Assembly (NCBI RefSeq): GCF_016937535.1
Contig: NZ_JAFHKK010000014.1
Location: 1-60,705, forward strand
DNA: 60,705 nt
Source of the DNA: Sulfurospirillum tamanense
GTDB taxonomy: Bacteria > Campylobacterota > Campylobacteria > Campylobacterales > Campylobacteraceae
Direction: 5' to 3'
A program made the position numbers and the translations under genes. This document shows positions 4,917 to 13,868 of the stretch, piece by piece; the first letter of the stretch is position 1; the number at the start of each line of letters is the position of its first letter. The notes beneath the pieces are model-generated. The model saw nothing but the letters and a program-made list of their open reading frames with translations. It had not been told where the DNA came from and did not search any database.

Positions 4917-7481
4917 CTAGGCTTCCCACGTGCCGCGAAGTGGTTCGCTGTAGTTGGGCACATCGTCGTAGCTAAAAATAGCAAAATACTTGGAAATTTG
5001 CGCCGTGCCAAAGGTGTCGTACGTGTAGTTGTCTTTACCCGCGTAAAGCTTGTCCCCGTCGGAAGGGTTGGTCGGGGGATGGAAGCGATTGCGCACCACA
5101 TAAACGCCTACAAATCCTTCTTCCTTGGGGTTTGTCCATGTGAGCTTAATCTTGCCGCCTTCGTTGGAAACTTTGAGGTCGGTGGCCATGGGTGGCGGGC
5201 TTTTGCGGCGCGGGATGTACTCTACGGTGAGGGTGACATTTTCATCCCACGTGACAAGGTGGTTTTTGACGATAGCAGAAGTAGGCTTGATGATAAATTT
5301 GCTTTTTTGCCCCTTTTGGTGCATTTCTTCTAGAGATTGTAACGAGTAGCTGTCAAAGATAAAATGGTGGCATTTGTTCTTTTGCAAGTCGGCTCGGCTC
5401 ACTTCATAACCGATAAACTCGATGCGCTCTCGAACTTTGATGTTCTCGCAACTCAGCTCTTCGATGTCCACAAACTCCACGTTGTAGCGGATGTCCTCTT
5501 TACTGCGTGTCCGGTTGCGACTTTTGATGCTAATGTACGCTCCTGTGATGACGGTTTGGTCGGGCGCGGGAAGCGTGTCGAGGCTAAATTCCATGTAGCC
5601 GTAGATTTTTTGATTTTCCTTGTCAAATCCACAAGAGAGTTGATGATTTTTTGTGTAGTCTAGGCTCACTGTGGCAATGGCATTTACGGGAATCTGAAGG
5701 GACTGGCTTGGCAAGGTGTATTTGATGAACAGGTTAGGACGGTAGTGAATCCCACCGCCAAAATTTCCATACCCCAAGTCAAACATCATCATCTGCGAAT
5801 CCCGCCCCAAAGGGAGCTTGGTAGGCCCGCTGATTTTGAGTAAAAGGGCGTTGTGGGTTTGGAGTTGGGTTTCTAGCAAGCGACGTTCGTATTCGTTAAA
5901 TTTCCAATGGCTCCAGATGCCTTGGGTGAGTGTTTCTGAGGGCATCGTGGTGCCGATGGTTTGAATCACGGTGCTTTGGCTGATGTGGTCAAAGTCAGTG
6001 ATGTCTCCAACGCTCTCGCGGTCGATGAGCGAAACCGACCACTCGCCAAATTTTTCTATCTTGGCATTGACGCGGTTAAGGGGGTAAAGAGAAAGGTACG
6101 CCTCTTTGATGATGGCATTTTGCGGCAAAGTATCAAGCTTAAAATCAATCACCCCGTAGCTAATGCCCTTGGTTTCGTTGATGCCGATAAAAAGCGAATT
6201 GCGTCCAAAATGGGCACGGTTTTGCTCTTTGGTAAATTCTGCCGTGTAGCCCACGTCGCTAGGAGTGGGGAAAATGGTGCGGTGAAATTCTGTGGAATCA
6301 AGCAAGGTTTGCACCCGCATTTTGGGGGCAAAAGCCGACTTGACGCCCGTGATGTTGTCCACCGCGCGAATGTAGTAAAAATAATTCGTCCCACTGGAGA
6401 GTTCAATGTCCGTAAAATGGTGGTTTTTAGTCACCCCGACAAGGGAGCTTTCATTGCAGGCTTCTTTGTTTTCGGTGTTGCGAAAAAGTTGAAAATAGAT
6501 ATCTTTTTTACAGGGGTATTCCCACGCCAGCGTGACTTCTTGGGAAGTTTTGTGCTGAAGCAAAAAATTCTCAGGCCGCCTTGGCGCGTTGGTGGAGTAG
6601 TTGTGCGCCTCGCTTAGGGCGTAAAGGAGCGCGGGGATGTTTTCGTGAATGCTCTCGCGCATGTTTTGCATAAAATCAGGAATATTGCGCGTGCCTACTT
6701 CTACTACCGTAGCGATGATGCCTTTGTTGTAGTAGTACTCTCGCCCACTCCCGCTAATGAGTTTTTTGGGCGGTTTTCCCCGGTGAATGCCGTATTTTCG
6801 CCCTGTTGCTTTGCGGATGTGGTAGTTCATATTTGCGCATAGGGTGTTGAGGTCTGTGCCTTCGATTTCGGCTTCGTGGTTGAACTTGTGGGCAGGAAAA
6901 AAGACGTTTCCCTGAGAGTGATAATCAAGGGCGATGGTGATGTTTTCATGGGCGTCTACAAAGGCTTTGATGGCCTGCGTTTCGGGCTCTGAAAAGGGTG
7001 CGGGGCCACTGTAGACGTTAGAGGAAGTGTCGGAGACTTTTTGAAATCCCACGCTAAAGTTGCGGTTCAAATCCACACCAAAAGTCCCATCTCCGTTGTT
7101 ACGGCGGTTTTTGCGCCAAAAGGAGAAGTGCTTGCGGCTGTACTCAAACCCATCGGGGTTAAGACAGGGTACGATGTAAAGGGTGTTTTTGGTGAGCACT
7201 TCTAAGACCATGGGGTTGGTGTCGTAGTGGCCTAGTAAGTACTCAATGAAACTCACCCCCAACTCGTTGCCTATCCACTCTCTGGCGTGAATAGTGCCCG
7301 TGTAAAGCAAGGCGGGTTTTAAATCCGCATGCTCTACATGTAAAGTAATTTTAGCCAAGATAATGTCGCGATTTTCCCAGGTTTTACCCAAGGATTCTAG
7401 GGAGATTAAGCTAGGATAGCGTCGTACACATTCTTTTAAAAATTCACAGGTTTGTTCGTAAGATCGGTACTGTTTTTTCAT
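4917..7481 (-). CDS. M14-family zinc carboxypeptidase with FN3 and DNRLRE-like domains
   Basis: 854 residues. Residues ~5-295 are an M14 metallocarboxypeptidase: zinc ligands H65 and E68 (GTIHAREW) and H188 (LDYHSQG), substrate-carboxylate residues N139-R140 (DLNRN), and catalytic E261 (VVEVGTRN). All key residues are present, so removal of C-terminal residues from a peptide is expected. A fibronectin type III-like domain follows (~310-400), then two related beta domains of the DNRLRE type (~415-590 and ~595-755) and a second FN3 (~765-854). Such accessory domains are usually extracellular, but no signal peptide or membrane segment is visible at the N-terminus. Last gene of the four-gene operon starting at 10939; the gap to the preceding ATP-grasp gene is 10 bp. 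Confidence 0.9.
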   Translation of the reverse strand: MKKQYRSYEQTCEFLKECVRRYPSLISLESLGKTWENRDIILAKITLHVEHADLKPALLYTGTIHAREWIGNELGVSFIEYLLGHYDTNPMVLEVLTKNTLYIVPCLNPDGFEYSRKHFSFWRKNRRNNGDGTFGVDLNRNFSVGFQKVSDTSSNVYSGPAPFSEPETQAIKAFVDAHENITIALDYHSQGNVFFPAHKFNHEAEIEGTDLNTLCANMNYHIRKATGRKYGIHRGKPPKKLISGSGREYYYNKGIIATVVEVGTRNIPDFMQNMRESIHENIPALLYALSEAHNYSTNAPRRPENFLLQHKTSQEVTLAWEYPCKKDIYFQLFRNTENKEACNESSLVGVTKNHHFTDIELSSGTNYFYYIRAVDNITGVKSAFAPKMRVQTLLDSTEFHRTIFPTPSDVGYTAEFTKEQNRAHFGRNSLFIGINETKGISYGVIDFKLDTLPQNAIIKEAYLSLYPLNRVNAKIEKFGEWSVSLIDRESVGDITDFDHISQSTVIQTIGTTMPSETLTQGIWSHWKFNEYERRLLETQLQTHNALLLKISGPTKLPLGRDSQMMMFDLGYGNFGGGIHYRPNLFIKYTLPSQSLQIPVNAIATVSLDYTKNHQLSCGFDKENQKIYGYMEFSLDTLPAPDQTVITGAYISIKSRNRTRSKEDIRYNVEFVDIEELSCENIKVRERIEFIGYEVSRADLQKNKCHHFIFDSYSLQSLEEMHQKGQKSKFIIKPTSAIVKNHLVTWDENVTLTVEYIPRRKSPPPMATDLKVSNEGGKIKLTWTNPKEEGFVGVYVVRNRFHPPTNPSDGDKLYAGKDNYTYDTFGTAQISKYFAIFSYDDVPNYSEPLRGTWEA

Positions 7482-7491
7482 TAAGTTTAGG

Positions 7492-8907
7492 TTAGCCTTT
7501 CTGGTGCCACTCTTCCCAAAGGGTAAGAATTTTCTTTTGTATTTTAGTGGTTAATCCCTTAATGTGTTCAAGAGAGGTGCCGCCTTGGTTTAAGGCCTCG
7601 GCCACTGCTTCGGGGCTACCGTACATTTCTAAAATACGGTCAAATTTTTTCTCCCCTACCCCTTCGATGGAGGTGAGCAATTTTTTGAGAGCTTTTTTAC
7701 CCAGTATTTTTTTGAATTGTGCGGGCGATTCTTGTGCCTCGTCACTTGGCGTTATCGGCGTCATGACAACTTCCGTAGAGCGCACAGGTTTGAGGGCAAA
7801 TTTACCTTGATAATTCCACGTTTGGCTTGGCCACTCCTGCGTTCCCGTTTCGAGGGTGTTTTCCATCGCGTAGTGCTCATCAAGCGCATGCAGATAATAC
7901 TCGCCGTCTACTAAGACTTTTTTCTTTTTGCCAAAATATCCTCCATCATAACTTGGGCTATACGCCCCAAAGGTGATATGGCGCATGGTGCGAAGCAAAG
8001 ATTTGTTGATTTTGCTAAGCTCTTCCCAGTTGTAAACAGGAATGTGAGGCTTAGGGAAACGCCCGTCGCTAAATTTCCACATCAAATACTGTCCAATCCA
8101 ATCACGGATGTAAGGAAAAGCCGCAAAAGCTGTGGCACACTCAAGGATGCGCACTTTCCCGTCTTTCCCGTAAGCCACATCACATGCCCAGTATTCTGCC
8201 TTGGCCGCTTTGCTGACGCGCACGGCCAAATCAAGGACTTTTTTGGGCACGTCGTGGTAATCCATCGAACCTCCTTGGGAAGTGTTGGTGAGCCATTTTC
8301 CCTCAGGCGGACGACGCCAAAAGGCACACACGGGCTTGTGGCCGATGAGCATGACGCGAATGTCTGCTTCCATGGGGATGAAATCTTGGATGTACATGGG
8401 GTAGTATTTTTTGGCTTTAAAAAGCGCTGTTGCCTCATTAAAGCTGTCTACTTTGTGGACAAAATAGCCACCATAATTAGAAGGGCCGTAGGATTTTTTG
8501 ATGATTTTAGGGTAGTGGGCTTTTTTCAAAAATGCCTCACCCTCTTCGGGGTTGTAAAAGATGCGGGTTTTAGGCACAGGGATTTTGTACTTCCATGCAA
8601 AACGCGTGACGTTTTCTTTGGATTTGTTGGAAAACTGCGTATCCAAGGAGGGCACAAACCGCACATGAGGCAGGGCAAGGCTGATGTCTCGAAAGGTTTC
8701 GTAGGCGGTAGCGGGCACATTGCCGATAAGCACGTCGATTTTTTTGCGTTTAATCTCCGCAATGAGACGCGCCTTGTCATTTCCCCAATGGTACGTCACT
8801 TTTTCGATTTTATCGGGCCAGCCTTTGAAATTTGAGGTATCAAAAAACTGTAAAACATAATCCAAATACAAAAGCCCAAGCGTTGGTAATTTACTGTTGC
8901 GTGCCAT
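7492..8907 (-). CDS. RimK-like ATP-grasp protein with C-terminal helix-hairpin-helix domain
   Basis: 471 residues. Residues ~100-290 show an ATP-grasp fold of the RimK/glutathione-synthetase kind: a nucleotide loop (KIIKKSYGPSNYGGYF), DIRVMLIG, and an SQGGS segment matching the N-x-x-x-GGS of the family. In the final metal-binding motif the usual E-x-N is replaced by E-C-A (RILECATAF), so one magnesium ligand appears lost. A variable middle region follows. The last ~75 residues contain SIEGVGEKKFDRIL and HIKGLTTKIQKKIL, two helix-hairpin-helix units as seen in DNA-binding proteins. SD AGGAAA precedes the ATG. It sits eight bases after the paralogous ATP-grasp gene. The likely role is peptide or amide ligation with a targeting tail, but substrate and activity are unknown. 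Confidence 0.82.
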   Translation of the reverse strand: MARNSKLPTLGLLYLDYVLQFFDTSNFKGWPDKIEKVTYHWGNDKARLIAEIKRKKIDVLIGNVPATAYETFRDISLALPHVRFVPSLDTQFSNKSKENVTRFAWKYKIPVPKTRIFYNPEEGEAFLKKAHYPKIIKKSYGPSNYGGYFVHKVDSFNEATALFKAKKYYPMYIQDFIPMEADIRVMLIGHKPVCAFWRRPPEGKWLTNTSQGGSMDYHDVPKKVLDLAVRVSKAAKAEYWACDVAYGKDGKVRILECATAFAAFPYIRDWIGQYLMWKFSDGRFPKPHIPVYNWEELSKINKSLLRTMRHITFGAYSPSYDGGYFGKKKKVLVDGEYYLHALDEHYAMENTLETGTQEWPSQTWNYQGKFALKPVRSTEVVMTPITPSDEAQESPAQFKKILGKKALKKLLTSIEGVGEKKFDRILEMYGSPEAVAEALNQGGTSLEHIKGLTTKIQKKILTLWEEWHQKG

Positions 8908-8915
8908 GCGTTTTC

Positions 8916-9839
8916 CTAGTGTTGTGTTTTTTTGTCGATAAGTTCAGCGATGAGTTCAATTTTTTTGCCATTAAAATCCAACCCCACTTTTTCTTGCTCG
9001 GGAGTGGCAAAAGCAGGGATGCCATTAACTTCTAGCACCACGTACTCTTCTTTTTTGCGGTCATAGATGATGTCTACCCCTGCAATTTCAAGCCCCGTAA
9101 TTTTAGCGGCTTTTAGTGCCAGTTCGATTACGGCAGGTTCGGGCTCGCGCAAAAAGACGCTCCCGCCACTGCTAATGTTGGTGCGCCAGTCGCTCCCGCC
9201 CGCCTTTCGTCCGTAGCATCCTATGAAGGTGTTGTCCACGATGTCCACGCGGTAATCGGTCTTGTCATAGTCAATAAATTTTTCCACGTAAAAAAAGCGC
9301 AAATCCATTTGATTTAGAAAGGGCATCAGCATGTCCAAACTGGCTTCGTTTTCAATCTTGGTAAGCCCCACCCCACCCCAGCCGTCGGTGGGTTTGTAGA
9401 CCATCTTGTCCCATTTTTTGAGGATTTTTGACAAAAAACGCCCATCGTCGCGATGGCAAAGCCTATAATCAGCGGTCAAAACCCCGTGGTTGCGCAACAA
9501 AAAAGAGGTTTGAAATTTGTCTTCAGTGAGTTCAAAGGCTTCGTAATTGTTAATAGTGGGCATGATGCGATTGAGCGCTTTGTAGAGAAACATTTGATAC
9601 TGTGTTTGCTCCCCTGCATTATAGGAAAAAAAGAGGTCAAGTTTGTTCATTTTGACCGCTTTTCCTTTGCCGTTATCGCTGTTACAGTAAATGGTGCCGT
9701 TTTTTGCAACAGCGTTGCGCAGATTGAGTCCTGTGATAGTTTCAATTCCCCGTTCTTTGAGCTGTTTGACCAATTTTTTCTGAATGGCTTCGCCGCCGCT
9801 GTTTTGGTAAAGCCACATGCCAATGGTGCGCGTTTTCAT
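8916..9839 (-). CDS. RimK-like ATP-grasp ligase
   Basis: 307 residues. Motifs of a complete RimK-type ATP-grasp ligase are visible: MVYKPTDGWGGVGL (nucleotide loop), DYRVDIVDN, NISSGGSV, GVDIIY, and the metal-binding E-x-N in VLEVNGIPAF. The family joins an acyl-phosphate intermediate to an amine, commonly adding glutamate or another amino acid to a peptide or protein end. The ATG at 9839 is chosen over one 27 bp upstream because an AGGAG lies five bases before it and it forms an ATGA overlap with the stop of the M20 peptidase gene, implying coupled translation. It is a paralogue of the next gene (7492-8907) but without the HhH tail. Confidence 0.85.
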   Translation of the reverse strand: MKTRTIGMWLYQNSGGEAIQKKLVKQLKERGIETITGLNLRNAVAKNGTIYCNSDNGKGKAVKMNKLDLFFSYNAGEQTQYQMFLYKALNRIMPTINNYEAFELTEDKFQTSFLLRNHGVLTADYRLCHRDDGRFLSKILKKWDKMVYKPTDGWGGVGLTKIENEASLDMLMPFLNQMDLRFFYVEKFIDYDKTDYRVDIVDNTFIGCYGRKAGGSDWRTNISSGGSVFLREPEPAVIELALKAAKITGLEIAGVDIIYDRKKEEYVVLEVNGIPAFATPEQEKVGLDFNGKKIELIAELIDKKTQH

Positions 9840-10939
9840 TTGAACTCCTGATGTTCTTGGTGCCATGCGAGGATGTGACTCATCATGGTGATGCGTTGGT
9901 TAAAGCTTGATTTTAGCGCCCGTTCGTGTACCGTATGGTCTCCGTCCCCAAAAGGCCCCATGCCATCCAGTGTCACCACGCCGCAAGAAGCCACGTGGTT
10001 CGCATCGCTCACGCCTCCGCGTTTTTCGGTGGGGATAGGATGTTGACAAAGGGTTTCGAGGGTTTGGATAAAGGCGGCTTGCGCAGCATTTGGCTCCATC
10101 ACGTCACGTTGAATGAGCCCTTTACATGTAGCGCTTGTCCCTGGCACAAAGGCATGGTTGGTGATCTCCTCTAGGGCGTGGAGCAAGCGCTGTTTTTCTT
10201 TTTCGTTGGCAAAGCGGATTTCAAGGAGCATCTCGCAATGGGGACTGATGGTGTTGGCGCCAACGCCTCCTTGGATAGTGCCTACATTGACCGTAGTGCC
10301 TTCCTCTAGGTTCGTAAGGGCGGTGAGGGCTTGGAGTTTGTAAGCGGCTTCTAGGTTGGCGTTAATGCCCTCAGTGTAACGCACCCCTGCGTGGGCGGCT
10401 TTGCCTTTTACATGTAAGGTGTATGTTCCCACCCCTTTTCTGCCTGTGACCACTTCGAGGTTTTTACCCGCCGCTTCAAACACAAAGCAATAATCATAGC
10501 TCTTAGCCAACTCCAAAGTTAAAGCCTTACTATCATCACTACCTGTTTCTTCATCGCTCACGAGGAAAAAATCCACATTATAAAGCGTTCCAAAACGCTT
10601 GTGGGTTTCTCGCAAGGCTTCAAGAGCGACGATATTGCCCCCTTTCATGTCACAAACTCCTGGGCCATAGACCCACGCTTCATCGTGGCTAAAGGTTTCA
10701 AAGGTTTCTGGCGCAAAGACCGTGTCGTTGTGGCCCAAAAGCAAGATTTTTGCCCCCTCTTTATGGGGGGTTTGAAACAAGAGATGGTTTCCTAGGGTTT
10801 CTCTTGTAAAGGTGGTCACGCTAAATCCCAAAGGGACAAGCCACGCTTGCATCTGTTGGCCTACCTTGTCTACACCTGCTTTATTTTTGGTGTAAGAGTT
10901 GATGCAGCATAGGGTTTCTAGGTCTTGAAGGTAGTGCAT
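9836..10939 (-). CDS. M20-family metallopeptidase (glutamate carboxypeptidase-like)
   Basis: 367 residues with the full set of di-zinc M20 residues: GHNDTV (His), GVCDMKGG (bridging Asp), SDEETGS (catalytic Glu and ligand), FEAAG, and DGDHTVHE (final His). The dimerisation lid lies at ~165-270 and includes KGKAAHAG. Its overall form is that of carboxypeptidase G2-like enzymes, which release C-terminal glutamate or cleave dipeptides and acyl-amino acids. There is no signal peptide, so it is probably cytoplasmic. It is the first gene of an operon with two ATP-grasp proteins and an M14 carboxypeptidase, which suggests that it trims or recycles what the ligases build. Two dispersed palindromes lie in the gene: 10408 (perfect, LHVK) and near 10122 (ATCKG). 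Confidence 0.88.
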   Translation of the reverse strand: MHYLQDLETLCCINSYTKNKAGVDKVGQQMQAWLVPLGFSVTTFTRETLGNHLLFQTPHKEGAKILLLGHNDTVFAPETFETFSHDEAWVYGPGVCDMKGGNIVALEALRETHKRFGTLYNVDFFLVSDEETGSDDSKALTLELAKSYDYCFVFEAAGKNLEVVTGRKGVGTYTLHVKGKAAHAGVRYTEGINANLEAAYKLQALTALTNLEEGTTVNVGTIQGGVGANTISPHCEMLLEIRFANEKEKQRLLHALEEITNHAFVPGTSATCKGLIQRDVMEPNAAQAAFIQTLETLCQHPIPTEKRGGVSDANHVASCGVVTLDGMGPFGDGDHTVHERALKSSFNQRITMMSHILAWHQEHQEFK

Positions 10940-10942
10940 GAG

Positions 10943-10976
10943 GAACCCTTGTGTGGCAAATTAAGGGTTCATTATA
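10943..10976 (-). promoter_or_regulatory. Promoter and inverted-repeat operator of the ATP-grasp/peptidase operon
   Basis: A TATAAT -10 box (minus strand, 10976-10971, in GCTATAATGA) is immediately followed by an inverted repeat with 8-bp perfect arms, GAACCCTT and AAGGGTTC (10970-10963 and 10950-10943), separated by 12 bases. The predicted transcription start falls in the first arm. The position suits a repressor operator; a short leader hairpin next to the ATG is the alternative. Confidence 0.5.
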
Positions 10977-11036: not shown

Positions 11037-11681
11037 TTACATGTAACGCAGTTTGTAGCCCATTCCTCCTTGGGAGAGCAGTGTCTCTGAGGGGAGTTTT
11101 TTGCGCAAGCGTTTGACGAGTGCGCGGACGTTTTCGAGGCTCGTAAGCTCCCCTTCCCAGACGTAACACTCAATCATTTCAAAGGTAATGATTTTATCCA
11201 AATGTTTTGCCATGAGATTAAGCAGTAGAATCTCTTTTTTGGCCAGCTTGACTTCTTCATTATTTTCGTATAAAAGCTGCGCGTGGGTGTCGAAAAAAAC
11301 AGTCTCCGAAAAATGCAATTTCGTGTGCGTGGGTTTACATAATTTGTCTACTTTGAAAACCAACTCATCCACATAGAAGGGCTTTTTGAGGTATTCGTCG
11401 CACCCATCGCAGTAGGCTTCTTTGATGGTTTCAAGGTCAATGTTGGCACTGATGATAATGGCAGGTGTTTGGCTGTCTAGGAAACGAATTTCTTTAAGGA
11501 GCGTGAGTCCATCGATTCCAGGGACATTGATGTCTAAAATGAAGCAGTCGTAGCCGTTATCAATGGCTTCTAGGGCTTTTTTACCATCACTAAATGCGTC
11601 TACTTGGTAGCGCGACTGATCAAGGGCTTCAATGATGAGATCGCTTAGGCGCTCATTGTCTTCAAGGAGGAGTATTTTCAT
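11037..11681 (-). CDS. OmpR-type response regulator
   Basis: 214 residues. The N-terminal receiver domain has the acidic pair in LLLEDNERL, the phospho-acceptor Asp in CFILDINVPG, and the conserved Lys in YLKKPF. The C-terminal ~90 residues form a winged-helix DNA-binding domain (LVKRLRKKL recognition region). It lies 9 bp downstream of the sensor kinase gene and is its evident partner. The last codons (LRYM-stop) are formed by a perfect TTACATGTAA at 11037-11046, so the palindrome supplies the stop codon. Confidence 0.92.
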   Translation of the reverse strand: MKILLLEDNERLSDLIIEALDQSRYQVDAFSDGKKALEAIDNGYDCFILDINVPGIDGLTLLKEIRFLDSQTPAIIISANIDLETIKEAYCDGCDEYLKKPFYVDELVFKVDKLCKPTHTKLHFSETVFFDTHAQLLYENNEEVKLAKKEILLLNLMAKHLDKIITFEMIECYVWEGELTSLENVRALVKRLRKKLPSETLLSQGGMGYKLRYM

Positions 11682-11690
11682 AGGGCAATT

Positions 11691-13868
11691 TTAACCATTT
11701 GACGTATTTTTTGCAAGATGAATGCTGATTTTGGCACCTTTGTCTGTGTTGCTTGCTAGAATGCGTCCTTGCATTTTATCTTCAATGATGAGTTTGGCCA
11801 TGTAAAGCCCAAAGCCATCACCATGTTCTTTGGTGCTGTAAAAAGGGTCAAATACGTGGGGCAGGCTTTCAGGGTCCATGCCGCCCCCATCATCTTCAAT
11901 CCCCAGAATAGCATTGTGGGCGGTTTGTGAGAGAGTGATAGTGATTTGCCCTGCTTTTTTTCCTGCAATGCGTTGTTTGATGATGGCATCTTTGGCGTTA
12001 TTGATGATGTTGAGAAGGGTTTGTTTAAATTCATTGGGGTAGCCGTAGGTTTGGAGTGCTATGTCTTCGTCTTTACATGTAAAGATTGAGGTGATGTAGT
12101 TGTATTTGAGTGTGTGGTTTAAAATCTTTAAAATATCCTCGATAGCATCCTTGACACAAAAAACTACAGGCTTTGTTGAGGGCTTGATAAACGCGCGAAA
12201 ATCGTCAATGGTTTGGGTCATATAAGAGACTTGTTCCATGATTTCCATTGAAAACGCCTTGGCCTCTTCTTGGGTGATGGCGTGTTTTTTGCGGGCATAA
12301 ACAAGAGATTGAGCGATGGCAGAAATTTCAATGAGAGGTGTTTTCCATTGGTGGGCGATGGAGGCGAGCATTTCGCCTACTTCGGACTGTTTGGAACGCT
12401 GTAAGACAAACTGCTCATGGCGCTTGTACTCTAGTTCGATTTTTCGTTTTTCGGTAACGTCAGTCATGATGGTAACAACACCGCGTTCAAAGCGCTTTCG
12501 GCGTATCATGAGGTCGCGTTTTTTGCCATCAATATCCACATAGGAGAGCTCAATGTCTGTTTTGAAACTCCCCTCTTCTTCGCGCATAAAATCTTTGAGG
12601 TTTGGCATGATTTGAGTGATATGGTGGCCGATAAGCTCTTTTTTTGGCTTGTTAAGCAAAGTACACAAAGCGCGGTTGCATCCGAGCAAAATCCCCTCAT
12701 GAGAACGCCAAAAAATGGCACTTTGTATGGTGTTGAGCAAAACGCTATCAAGCTCATTTTGGGCACGCATTTGTTCTTCTAGAACAGTTTTTTTATAAAG
12801 CCCAAACAAAAGCGCTATAGTAAAGAAAAGCAACAAAGGCGAGAGAGTAAATACGCTGTTGACAAGCTCTCTGTTGCGCTCAAGAAATCCAAGGGGCATG
12901 TTGATGATAATAGAATTTTTAGGCAGCGCTTCTGTAAGTAAAGCGTGTTTTGTCAGCATATTCATGTCAAACATAGGTTGGGCTTGAGGCGTGGTGATGG
13001 GGATATCCATAGGAGAGATACCGCCTAGTATCTCAAGGGCTTTTTTGGCCGCTTCGCTGCCTTGGGTAAAGGGGTCCACCATAATGCCTCCAACAACTCC
13101 CTCATCCAGATGAATGGACGTTAAAGCAAAAATGGGAAGTTGCGTCTCTTTAAAAAAACTTTTCAACTTTGCATAAGGGACGTAAATCTCTCGGGTGTCG
13201 CGGTAAAGACTTGTGAAAAGCACAGCAGAGCGCACTGGAAGTTGTGCAAGTTTTTGAGGCAAGGTTTCGAGCAAAATGTCGTTATCGTAAATGATTTCAA
13301 AGCGCTCAAGGTATTTTTCTTTGGCTTGAAAAATCTGTTCCTTGATGCGTCGCGAAGAGTAAGCCTTGTCGCTAATGATGTAGACTTTTTGGAGGTTTGG
13401 CACTAGAGCGTCAATGAGCTCAAAAGTCTTGTCTACTTCTTTATACTCAACTATGCCTGTTGTTTTGTAGGTTGCTTGATGAATTTGAAGTTGCATGGGG
13501 TCAAAATTTTCAACACCGCAAAAAACAATGGGCGTATTGGGAAAAAGAGTGCTCCCGTGTTCTAGGGCAAACTCAAAAGCAAAGTTATCGGCCACAATGA
13601 CGACCTCATAGCGTCTGCCTGTAAATTTCTTGCGGTAGAGTTCGAGTACGGTTTGAAAATATTCGGGCGAATCAATTTTTTTGCTGTCCATGTACTCTGT
13701 GGTGATTTCGTATTCTGGGTAGTCTTTAAAAACACTCTCAACCCCCAAAGAGATGCCATCGGTCCATTTTAATCCCTTGTTGTAGGATTGAAGCAAAAGA
13801 ATTTCTTTGTCATAAGAGGCCCAAAGTAAAGAGGCGAAACAAAACACCAAAAGCACTACGATGCGCAT
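11691..13868 (-). CDS. Membrane sensor histidine kinase with periplasmic ABC-substrate-binding-like domain
   Basis: 725 residues. A signal peptide (MRIVVLLVFCFASLLWA) is followed by a ~300-residue periplasmic region resembling the ABC substrate-binding (LacI/type I) fold, then a membrane helix at ~345-365 (LLLFFTIALLFGLYKK), a PAS domain (~370-480, ending VTIMTDVTEKRK), a dimerisation domain with the phospho-His in SIAHQWKTPL, and an ATPase domain with NIINNAKDAI, DDGGGM and GDGFGLYMAK. It senses an unknown extracellular ligand and phosphorylates the response regulator encoded next. The start codon overlaps the stop of the preceding gene (TAATG). Confidence 0.92.
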   Translation of the reverse strand: MRIVVLLVFCFASLLWASYDKEILLLQSYNKGLKWTDGISLGVESVFKDYPEYEITTEYMDSKKIDSPEYFQTVLELYRKKFTGRRYEVVIVADNFAFEFALEHGSTLFPNTPIVFCGVENFDPMQLQIHQATYKTTGIVEYKEVDKTFELIDALVPNLQKVYIISDKAYSSRRIKEQIFQAKEKYLERFEIIYDNDILLETLPQKLAQLPVRSAVLFTSLYRDTREIYVPYAKLKSFFKETQLPIFALTSIHLDEGVVGGIMVDPFTQGSEAAKKALEILGGISPMDIPITTPQAQPMFDMNMLTKHALLTEALPKNSIIINMPLGFLERNRELVNSVFTLSPLLLFFTIALLFGLYKKTVLEEQMRAQNELDSVLLNTIQSAIFWRSHEGILLGCNRALCTLLNKPKKELIGHHITQIMPNLKDFMREEEGSFKTDIELSYVDIDGKKRDLMIRRKRFERGVVTIMTDVTEKRKIELEYKRHEQFVLQRSKQSEVGEMLASIAHQWKTPLIEISAIAQSLVYARKKHAITQEEAKAFSMEIMEQVSYMTQTIDDFRAFIKPSTKPVVFCVKDAIEDILKILNHTLKYNYITSIFTCKDEDIALQTYGYPNEFKQTLLNIINNAKDAIIKQRIAGKKAGQITITLSQTAHNAILGIEDDGGGMDPESLPHVFDPFYSTKEHGDGFGLYMAKLIIEDKMQGRILASNTDKGAKISIHLAKNTSNG

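Follow-up and report, generated by a model that had tools for sequence, protein, structure and literature searches.

Which biological function would call for two ATP-grasp proteins and two carboxypeptidases to be encoded side by side? This question is raised by positions 4917-10976 of the window, i.e., the whole 60,705-nucleotide stretch of Sulfurospirillum tamanense DNA analyzed here (contig NZ_JAFHKK010000014.1), in which a preliminary description had seen a writer/eraser system for a peptide tag or a peptide metabolite.

Architecture of the Gene Cluster

The four genes lie head-to-tail on the minus strand in the transcriptional order M20, LIG1, LIG2 and M14. The first (9836-10939) encodes an M20 metallopeptidase of 367 aa with Pfam Peptidase_M20 and M20_dimer matches. 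LIG1 (8916-9839) is a RimK-like ATP-grasp ligase of 307 aa that scores above the cut-off of the RimK family, and LIG2 (7492-8907) a LysX/ArgX/RimK-like ATP-grasp protein of 471 aa with a RimK match and a variable C-terminal helix-hairpin-helix (HhH). The last gene (4917-7481) encodes an M14A zinc carboxypeptidase of 854 aa with a Peptidase_M14 match and the fold of carboxypeptidase B. These are the families named in the preliminary description, with the reservation that the HhH of LIG2 is weak by Pfam (HHH_5, E 5e-4, below cut-off). The dense packing it reported is equally borne out on the minus strand: the M20 stop and the LIG1 start overlap by 4 bp in an ATGA (9836-9839, read directly from the sequence), and 8 bp (8908-8915) and 10 bp (7482-7491) separate LIG1 from LIG2 and LIG2 from M14. 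A mechanical open reading frame for LIG1 begins at 9866 and spans 316 aa, the numbering used below for its residues R206 and N281. Position 9866 is not a likely start since the alignments of LIG1 homologues also begin near 9839, where the ATG is directly preceded by an AGGAG ribosome-binding site.

The single promoter that had been assumed for the four genes was not recovered. A sigma-70 consensus scan of the 97 bp before M20 found no site, whereby such a consensus may miss Campylobacterota promoters, and a scan of the locus for promoters and terminators yielded nothing useful. Moreover, the four-gene unit is not always one transcript, because M20 is divergently oriented in some Sulfurovum-type loci. 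Directly upstream on the same strand (11037-13868) lie a response regulator and a histidine kinase whose sensor domain is of the ABC substrate-binding type, a pair that could regulate the four genes. Such a pair also precedes the gene set in locus L036.

Distribution and Co-Occurrence

When sought in relatives, the four-gene set recurs together across Campylobacterota in several unrelated contexts. Genome contigs of bacteria and archaea were scanned and the best 80 matches taken; all 80 loci belong to this phylum, with Sulfurimonas, Sulfurovum, Arcobacter and relatives, Nitratifractor and Hydrogenimonas as genera. One full-length copy of each gene is present in 36 loci, including the window and a Photobacterium locus. 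We rebuilt the gene order around LIG1 and found that the chromosomal surroundings of the set vary between groups (neighbor names were assigned from sequence). In Sulfurimonas-type loci the set follows rpsP-rimM-trmD-rplS, in Arcobacter-type loci argG is the upstream neighbor, in Sulfurovum-type loci the set is placed elsewhere and M20 is often divergent, and in the window the set lies behind the two-component system. A constant core in changing surroundings argues for a self-contained module. The four genes travel together in free-living Campylobacter relatives. The complete set of the gammaproteobacterium Photobacterium sp. DA100, of which the proteins share approximately 53-57% identity with those of the window, points to a transfer of the whole set as a unit.

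A few loci deviate from the basic composition. A second, diverged LIG1 copy (approximately 54-67% identity) lies beside LIG1 in four loci (L080, L088, L106 and L114) and flanking in two others (L062 and L108), which suggests different amino acid or acceptor specificities. In locus L104 (7576-7887), a small ORF of 103 aa, ORF6N-type-like, is inserted between M20 and LIG1.

For co-occurrence, LIG1, M14 and LIG2 were each traced through one common set of 298 class genomes. LIG1 is present in 31 genomes, M14 in 32 and LIG2 in 31, next to one eroded LIG2 remnant (G037), and all three occur together in 30 genomes. The exceptions are G105, with M20-LIG1 near a contig edge, G218, with LIG2 and M14 and no LIG1, G256, which kept M14 alone, and G037, in which the set is lost and a LIG2 fragment remains (locus L121). 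In G009 and G129, LIG2 is encoded outside the cluster, elsewhere in the genome, and the same holds for 11 out of 16 further genomes with a cluster devoid of LIG2. All 11 of these unlinked LIG2 genes directly adjoin efp, and in loci where dnaE was seen, it flanks LIG2 on the opposite side. In Sulfurimonas-type genomes (L120, 5000-6418; L122, 4619-6040; L123-L133), the lone LIG2 sits between efp and dnaE, approximately 30 bp behind efp, the gene of elongation factor P. The retention of LIG2 even when unlinked is strong evidence that it works with the other three genes. Taken together with the joint presence of LIG1, M14 and LIG2 in 30 of the 298 genomes, it leads us to consider the genes as one functional module. 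Dozens of loci and the whole-genome co-occurrence place the set beyond chance. Mirror-tree correlations (r 0.43-0.86), calculated without a housekeeping control, were given no evidential weight.

Conserved Residues and Predicted Specificity

M14 carries the most telling residue. Its residues 1-297 form the M14A carboxypeptidase, of which the model superimposes on carboxypeptidase B (Z 32.0, rmsd 2.4, 270 aligned residues), and precede fn3 and DNRLRE-like beta domains, the DNRLRE match being below cut-off. H65, E68, R123, N139, R140, H188 and E261 are invariant across 60 homologues, so that the M14A zinc ligands and catalytic sites (HxxE, R127, N144-R145, H196 and E270) are occupied in 60/60 at each position. 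The Tyr248 position, on the contrary, is not conserved and mostly holds Lys or His. At the position equivalent to 255 of bovine CPA, i.e., R247 in the window (codon 6741-6743, minus strand), 59 of the 60 homologues have Arg and one has Lys, whereas eight bacterial M14 proteins from outside the set carry Thr, Ile or Asp there, several of them with equal spacing to the catalytic Glu. Arg255 makes M14 enzymes such as CPO favor acidic residues at the C-terminus (PMC9925722). M14 is therefore predicted to be specific for C-terminal Glu/Asp. The register is backed by the alignment of the M14 motif SGSGREYYYxxG with SGSSIDWAYDNG of CPA4 and by the eight outside M14 proteins, and it rests on sequence alignment because the model, weak around 120-162 and 237-245, is so beside the specificity loop. 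The long fn3/DNRLRE-like tail (residues 300-854; window 4917-6600) keeps its length across the 60 homologues.

LIG1 points in the same direction. Its nearest solved relatives are RimK and ArgX, and E279, N281 and R206 are invariant in 83 homologues, which leaves the E-x-N motif intact. R206 and N281 align with R189 and N262 of Pseudomonas RimK, which contact the terminal glutamate (PMC10092738). None of the characterized glutamate ligase models of NCBIfam matches LIG1 above cut-off, and the same applies to all curated NCBIfam models for M20, LIG1 and LIG2.

For M20, carboxypeptidase G2 (CPG2) is the best PDB match (E 7.7e-25), and the metal-binding and catalytic residues H70, D97, E130, E131, E155 and H335 are invariant in 71/71 homologues. 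The positions of K208 and R324, which we take to be the glutamate-contact residues of CPG2, are not conserved in the aligned M20 sequences, while R167, K168 and R278 are invariant nearby in the same 71 homologues.

LIG2 is under strong constraint yet unusual. Structure comparison matches its fold to ArgX, LysX and RimK, with ArgX and LysX nearest, though with a pLDDT of 67 the model is weak and only the overall fold was used. LIG2 has 155 near-invariant residues, among which E256 and R184 are kept, but all 52/52 sequences have Ala (Ala258) instead of the Asn of E-x-N. Of the two ligases put forward in the preliminary description, LIG1 has E-x-N and glutamate contacts intact, whereas a ligase role for LIG2 is unproven. 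In the model, residues 404-470 with the HhH form a helical domain predicted with confidence. This end of LIG2 varies, and some Sulfurimonas lack it, which makes DNA or RNA binding unlikely as its core function.

All four proteins appear to be cytosolic, judged from their sequences. A simple hydropathy test found no signal-like N-termini in M14, LIG1 and LIG2, and the hydrophobic start of one M20 ORF is probably a mis-called start. M14 is thus predicted to be cytosolic, though it is in surface proteins that fn3/DNRLRE-like domains more commonly occur.

Proposed Function and Alternative Explanations

Given that a predicted acidic-specific M14, a CPG2-like M20 and a RimK-like LIG1 with conserved glutamate contacts are inherited together, we propose a cytosolic module that would reversibly extend an acceptor inside the cell, at one of its carboxyl groups, by an acidic residue (most likely L-glutamate), a reading to which we give an even chance. 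LIG1 would be the writer and would proceed like RimK/ArgX, activating the acceptor carboxylate with ATP as an acyl phosphate and joining the amino acid to it through an amide bond. M14 would trim terminal Glu/Asp off longer acceptors via Arg247 at the base of the S1' pocket, and M20 may remove or recycle residues from small products. LIG2 would be the other ATP-grasp subunit and may either ligate, with its metal or substrate binding altered, or present the acceptor as a non-catalytic partner. We infer the glutamate, the direction of each step and the role of LIG2. The writer/eraser idea is partly supported: neither of the outcomes that the preliminary description named as refuting it, i.e., absence of the joint set from relatives or a known pathway such as S6 glutamylation, came about, and position 255 of M14 and the glutamate contacts of LIG1 point to an acidic residue, while LIG2 as a ligase does not follow. 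Against our proposal count the sub-threshold scores of LIG1 for all characterized glutamate ligase models, the Asn that LIG2 has lost, the K208 and R324 positions without conservation in M20, and the incomplete sets in G256 (M14 alone) and G218 (LIG2 and M14 without LIG1), and a carboxypeptidase in the operon is no proof of action on the ligase product.

Alternatively, the product may be a peptide-like metabolite such as an osmolyte, a cofactor side chain or a storage peptide, which LIG1 and LIG2 would build on a small acceptor and M20 and M14 would release or degrade, with no regulatory tag involved. This is a possibility of some weight, though we do not favor it. M20 enzymes of this type act on small substrates, the top curated profile for LIG1 is MptN, the tetrahydromethanopterin glutamate ligase (below cut-off), and the patchy presence in the class together with the Photobacterium copy suits an accessory metabolite. 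However, in the rebuilt gene neighborhoods the set has no conserved companion that would be a transporter, a regulator or a third biosynthetic enzyme, and without turnover of the product it would be wasteful to keep two exo-carboxypeptidases next to two ligases.

Protein glutamylation and deglutamylation paralleling tubulin tyrosine ligase-like enzymes (TTLL) and cytosolic carboxypeptidases, in which LIG1 and its partner LIG2, devoid of the E-x-N Asn, would add C-terminal Glu to one or more cytosolic proteins and M20 and the M14A enzyme with Arg at position 255 would remove it, strikes us as rather doubtful. The C-termini of L19 (KELRRK) and EF-P (EKVK), the only part of these proteins inspected, give no hint of an acceptor.

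General peptide salvage, with the peptidases as scavengers and the ligases as unrelated passengers, is improbable. Salvage is a common role of M20 and M14 enzymes, and G256 indeed kept only M14, but the near-perfect co-occurrence of LIG1, LIG2 and M14, the retention of an unlinked LIG2 in cluster-bearing genomes and the Arg/Lys kept at the specificity site of M14 all speak against it. Even less probable is an amino-group carrier pathway like LysW/LysX/LysK, in which the ligases would load a carrier protein and M20 would free the product. Besides the nearness of LIG2 to ArgX and LysX, this explanation could draw on LysK being an M20 enzyme and on the argG upstream in Arcobacter loci. Nonetheless, the LysW family (PF21344) has no match in the bacterium's own genome, with controls detected as expected, M20 scores 36 bits against LysK compared to 184 bits for the glutamate carboxypeptidase model, and no small carrier gene fits the operon gaps of -4, 8 and 10 bp. 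A graspetide/RiPP ligase system is likewise improbable, as these gaps hold no precursor gene and no conserved small gene of at least 60 aa lies beside the set.

That the ligases constitute the ribosomal S6 glutamylation system, with which they share the ATP-grasp family of RimK, is almost certainly wrong and the distinction from S6 glutamylation can be upheld, as LIG1 and LIG2 reach 48 and 17 bits against the S6--glutamate ligase model (cut-off 331) and a separate, strong RimK (219 bits) is encoded elsewhere in the genome. This canonical trio of an AstE-like hydrolase, a RimB-like retropepsin and RimK is found near position 131626 of contig C1 (G000; locus L001, 34-2133).

If our proposal of reversible acidic-residue addition is true, the module would give bacteria a second and independent means of adding and removing acidic tags, found in a phylum that is prominent where marine habitats are sulfidic. 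From the Arg-255 signature follows a direct and inexpensive prediction, acidic C-terminal specificity, which makes the function testable. In addition, the defined gene set allows anonymous annotations such as 'RimK family ligase', 'ATP-grasp protein' and 'M14 peptidase' to be corrected in many genomes. A literature search that did not extend to the survey of amidoligases by Iyer et al. (2009) found no description of the four-gene set. A Nitratiruptor 'ATP-grasp protein' (NIS_RS04835) is induced by Cd and Cu (PMC10092412), but no tie to either LIG1 or LIG2 could be made.

Comparison with Known Systems

Writer/eraser pairs of an ATP-grasp ligase and a peptidase are already known in kind, while the four-part combination is without a curated family model. 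CPG2 is the nearest solved relative of the module M20 and shares its metal-binding and catalytic residues, yet the glutamate contacts that we attribute to CPG2 have no conserved counterparts where M20 aligns with them. The LysX/ArgX-LysW-LysK pathway likewise combines an ATP-grasp enzyme of the same fold with an M20 peptidase, but here LysW is missing, M20 is nearer to CPG2 than to LysK, and M14 is present. RimK with RimA/RimB, which acts on S6 in Escherichia coli and Pseudomonas, also joins a RimK-family ATP-grasp writer to a hydrolase, and its terminal-Glu contacts are conserved in LIG1. In contrast, LIG1 belongs to a different ligase subfamily, and the candidate erasers of the module are M14 and M20 metallopeptidases instead of a retropepsin-like protease. 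The eukaryotic CPO/cytosolic carboxypeptidases and tubulin tyrosine ligase-like enzymes follow the same logic, with a glutamate writer of the ATP-grasp type opposed by an M14 eraser, and the Arg at position 255 is common to CPO (PMC9925722) and the module M14. Unlike this eukaryotic pair, the module is bacterial, its eraser is of the M14A type with a fn3/DNRLRE tail, and it comprises M20 and LIG2 in addition.
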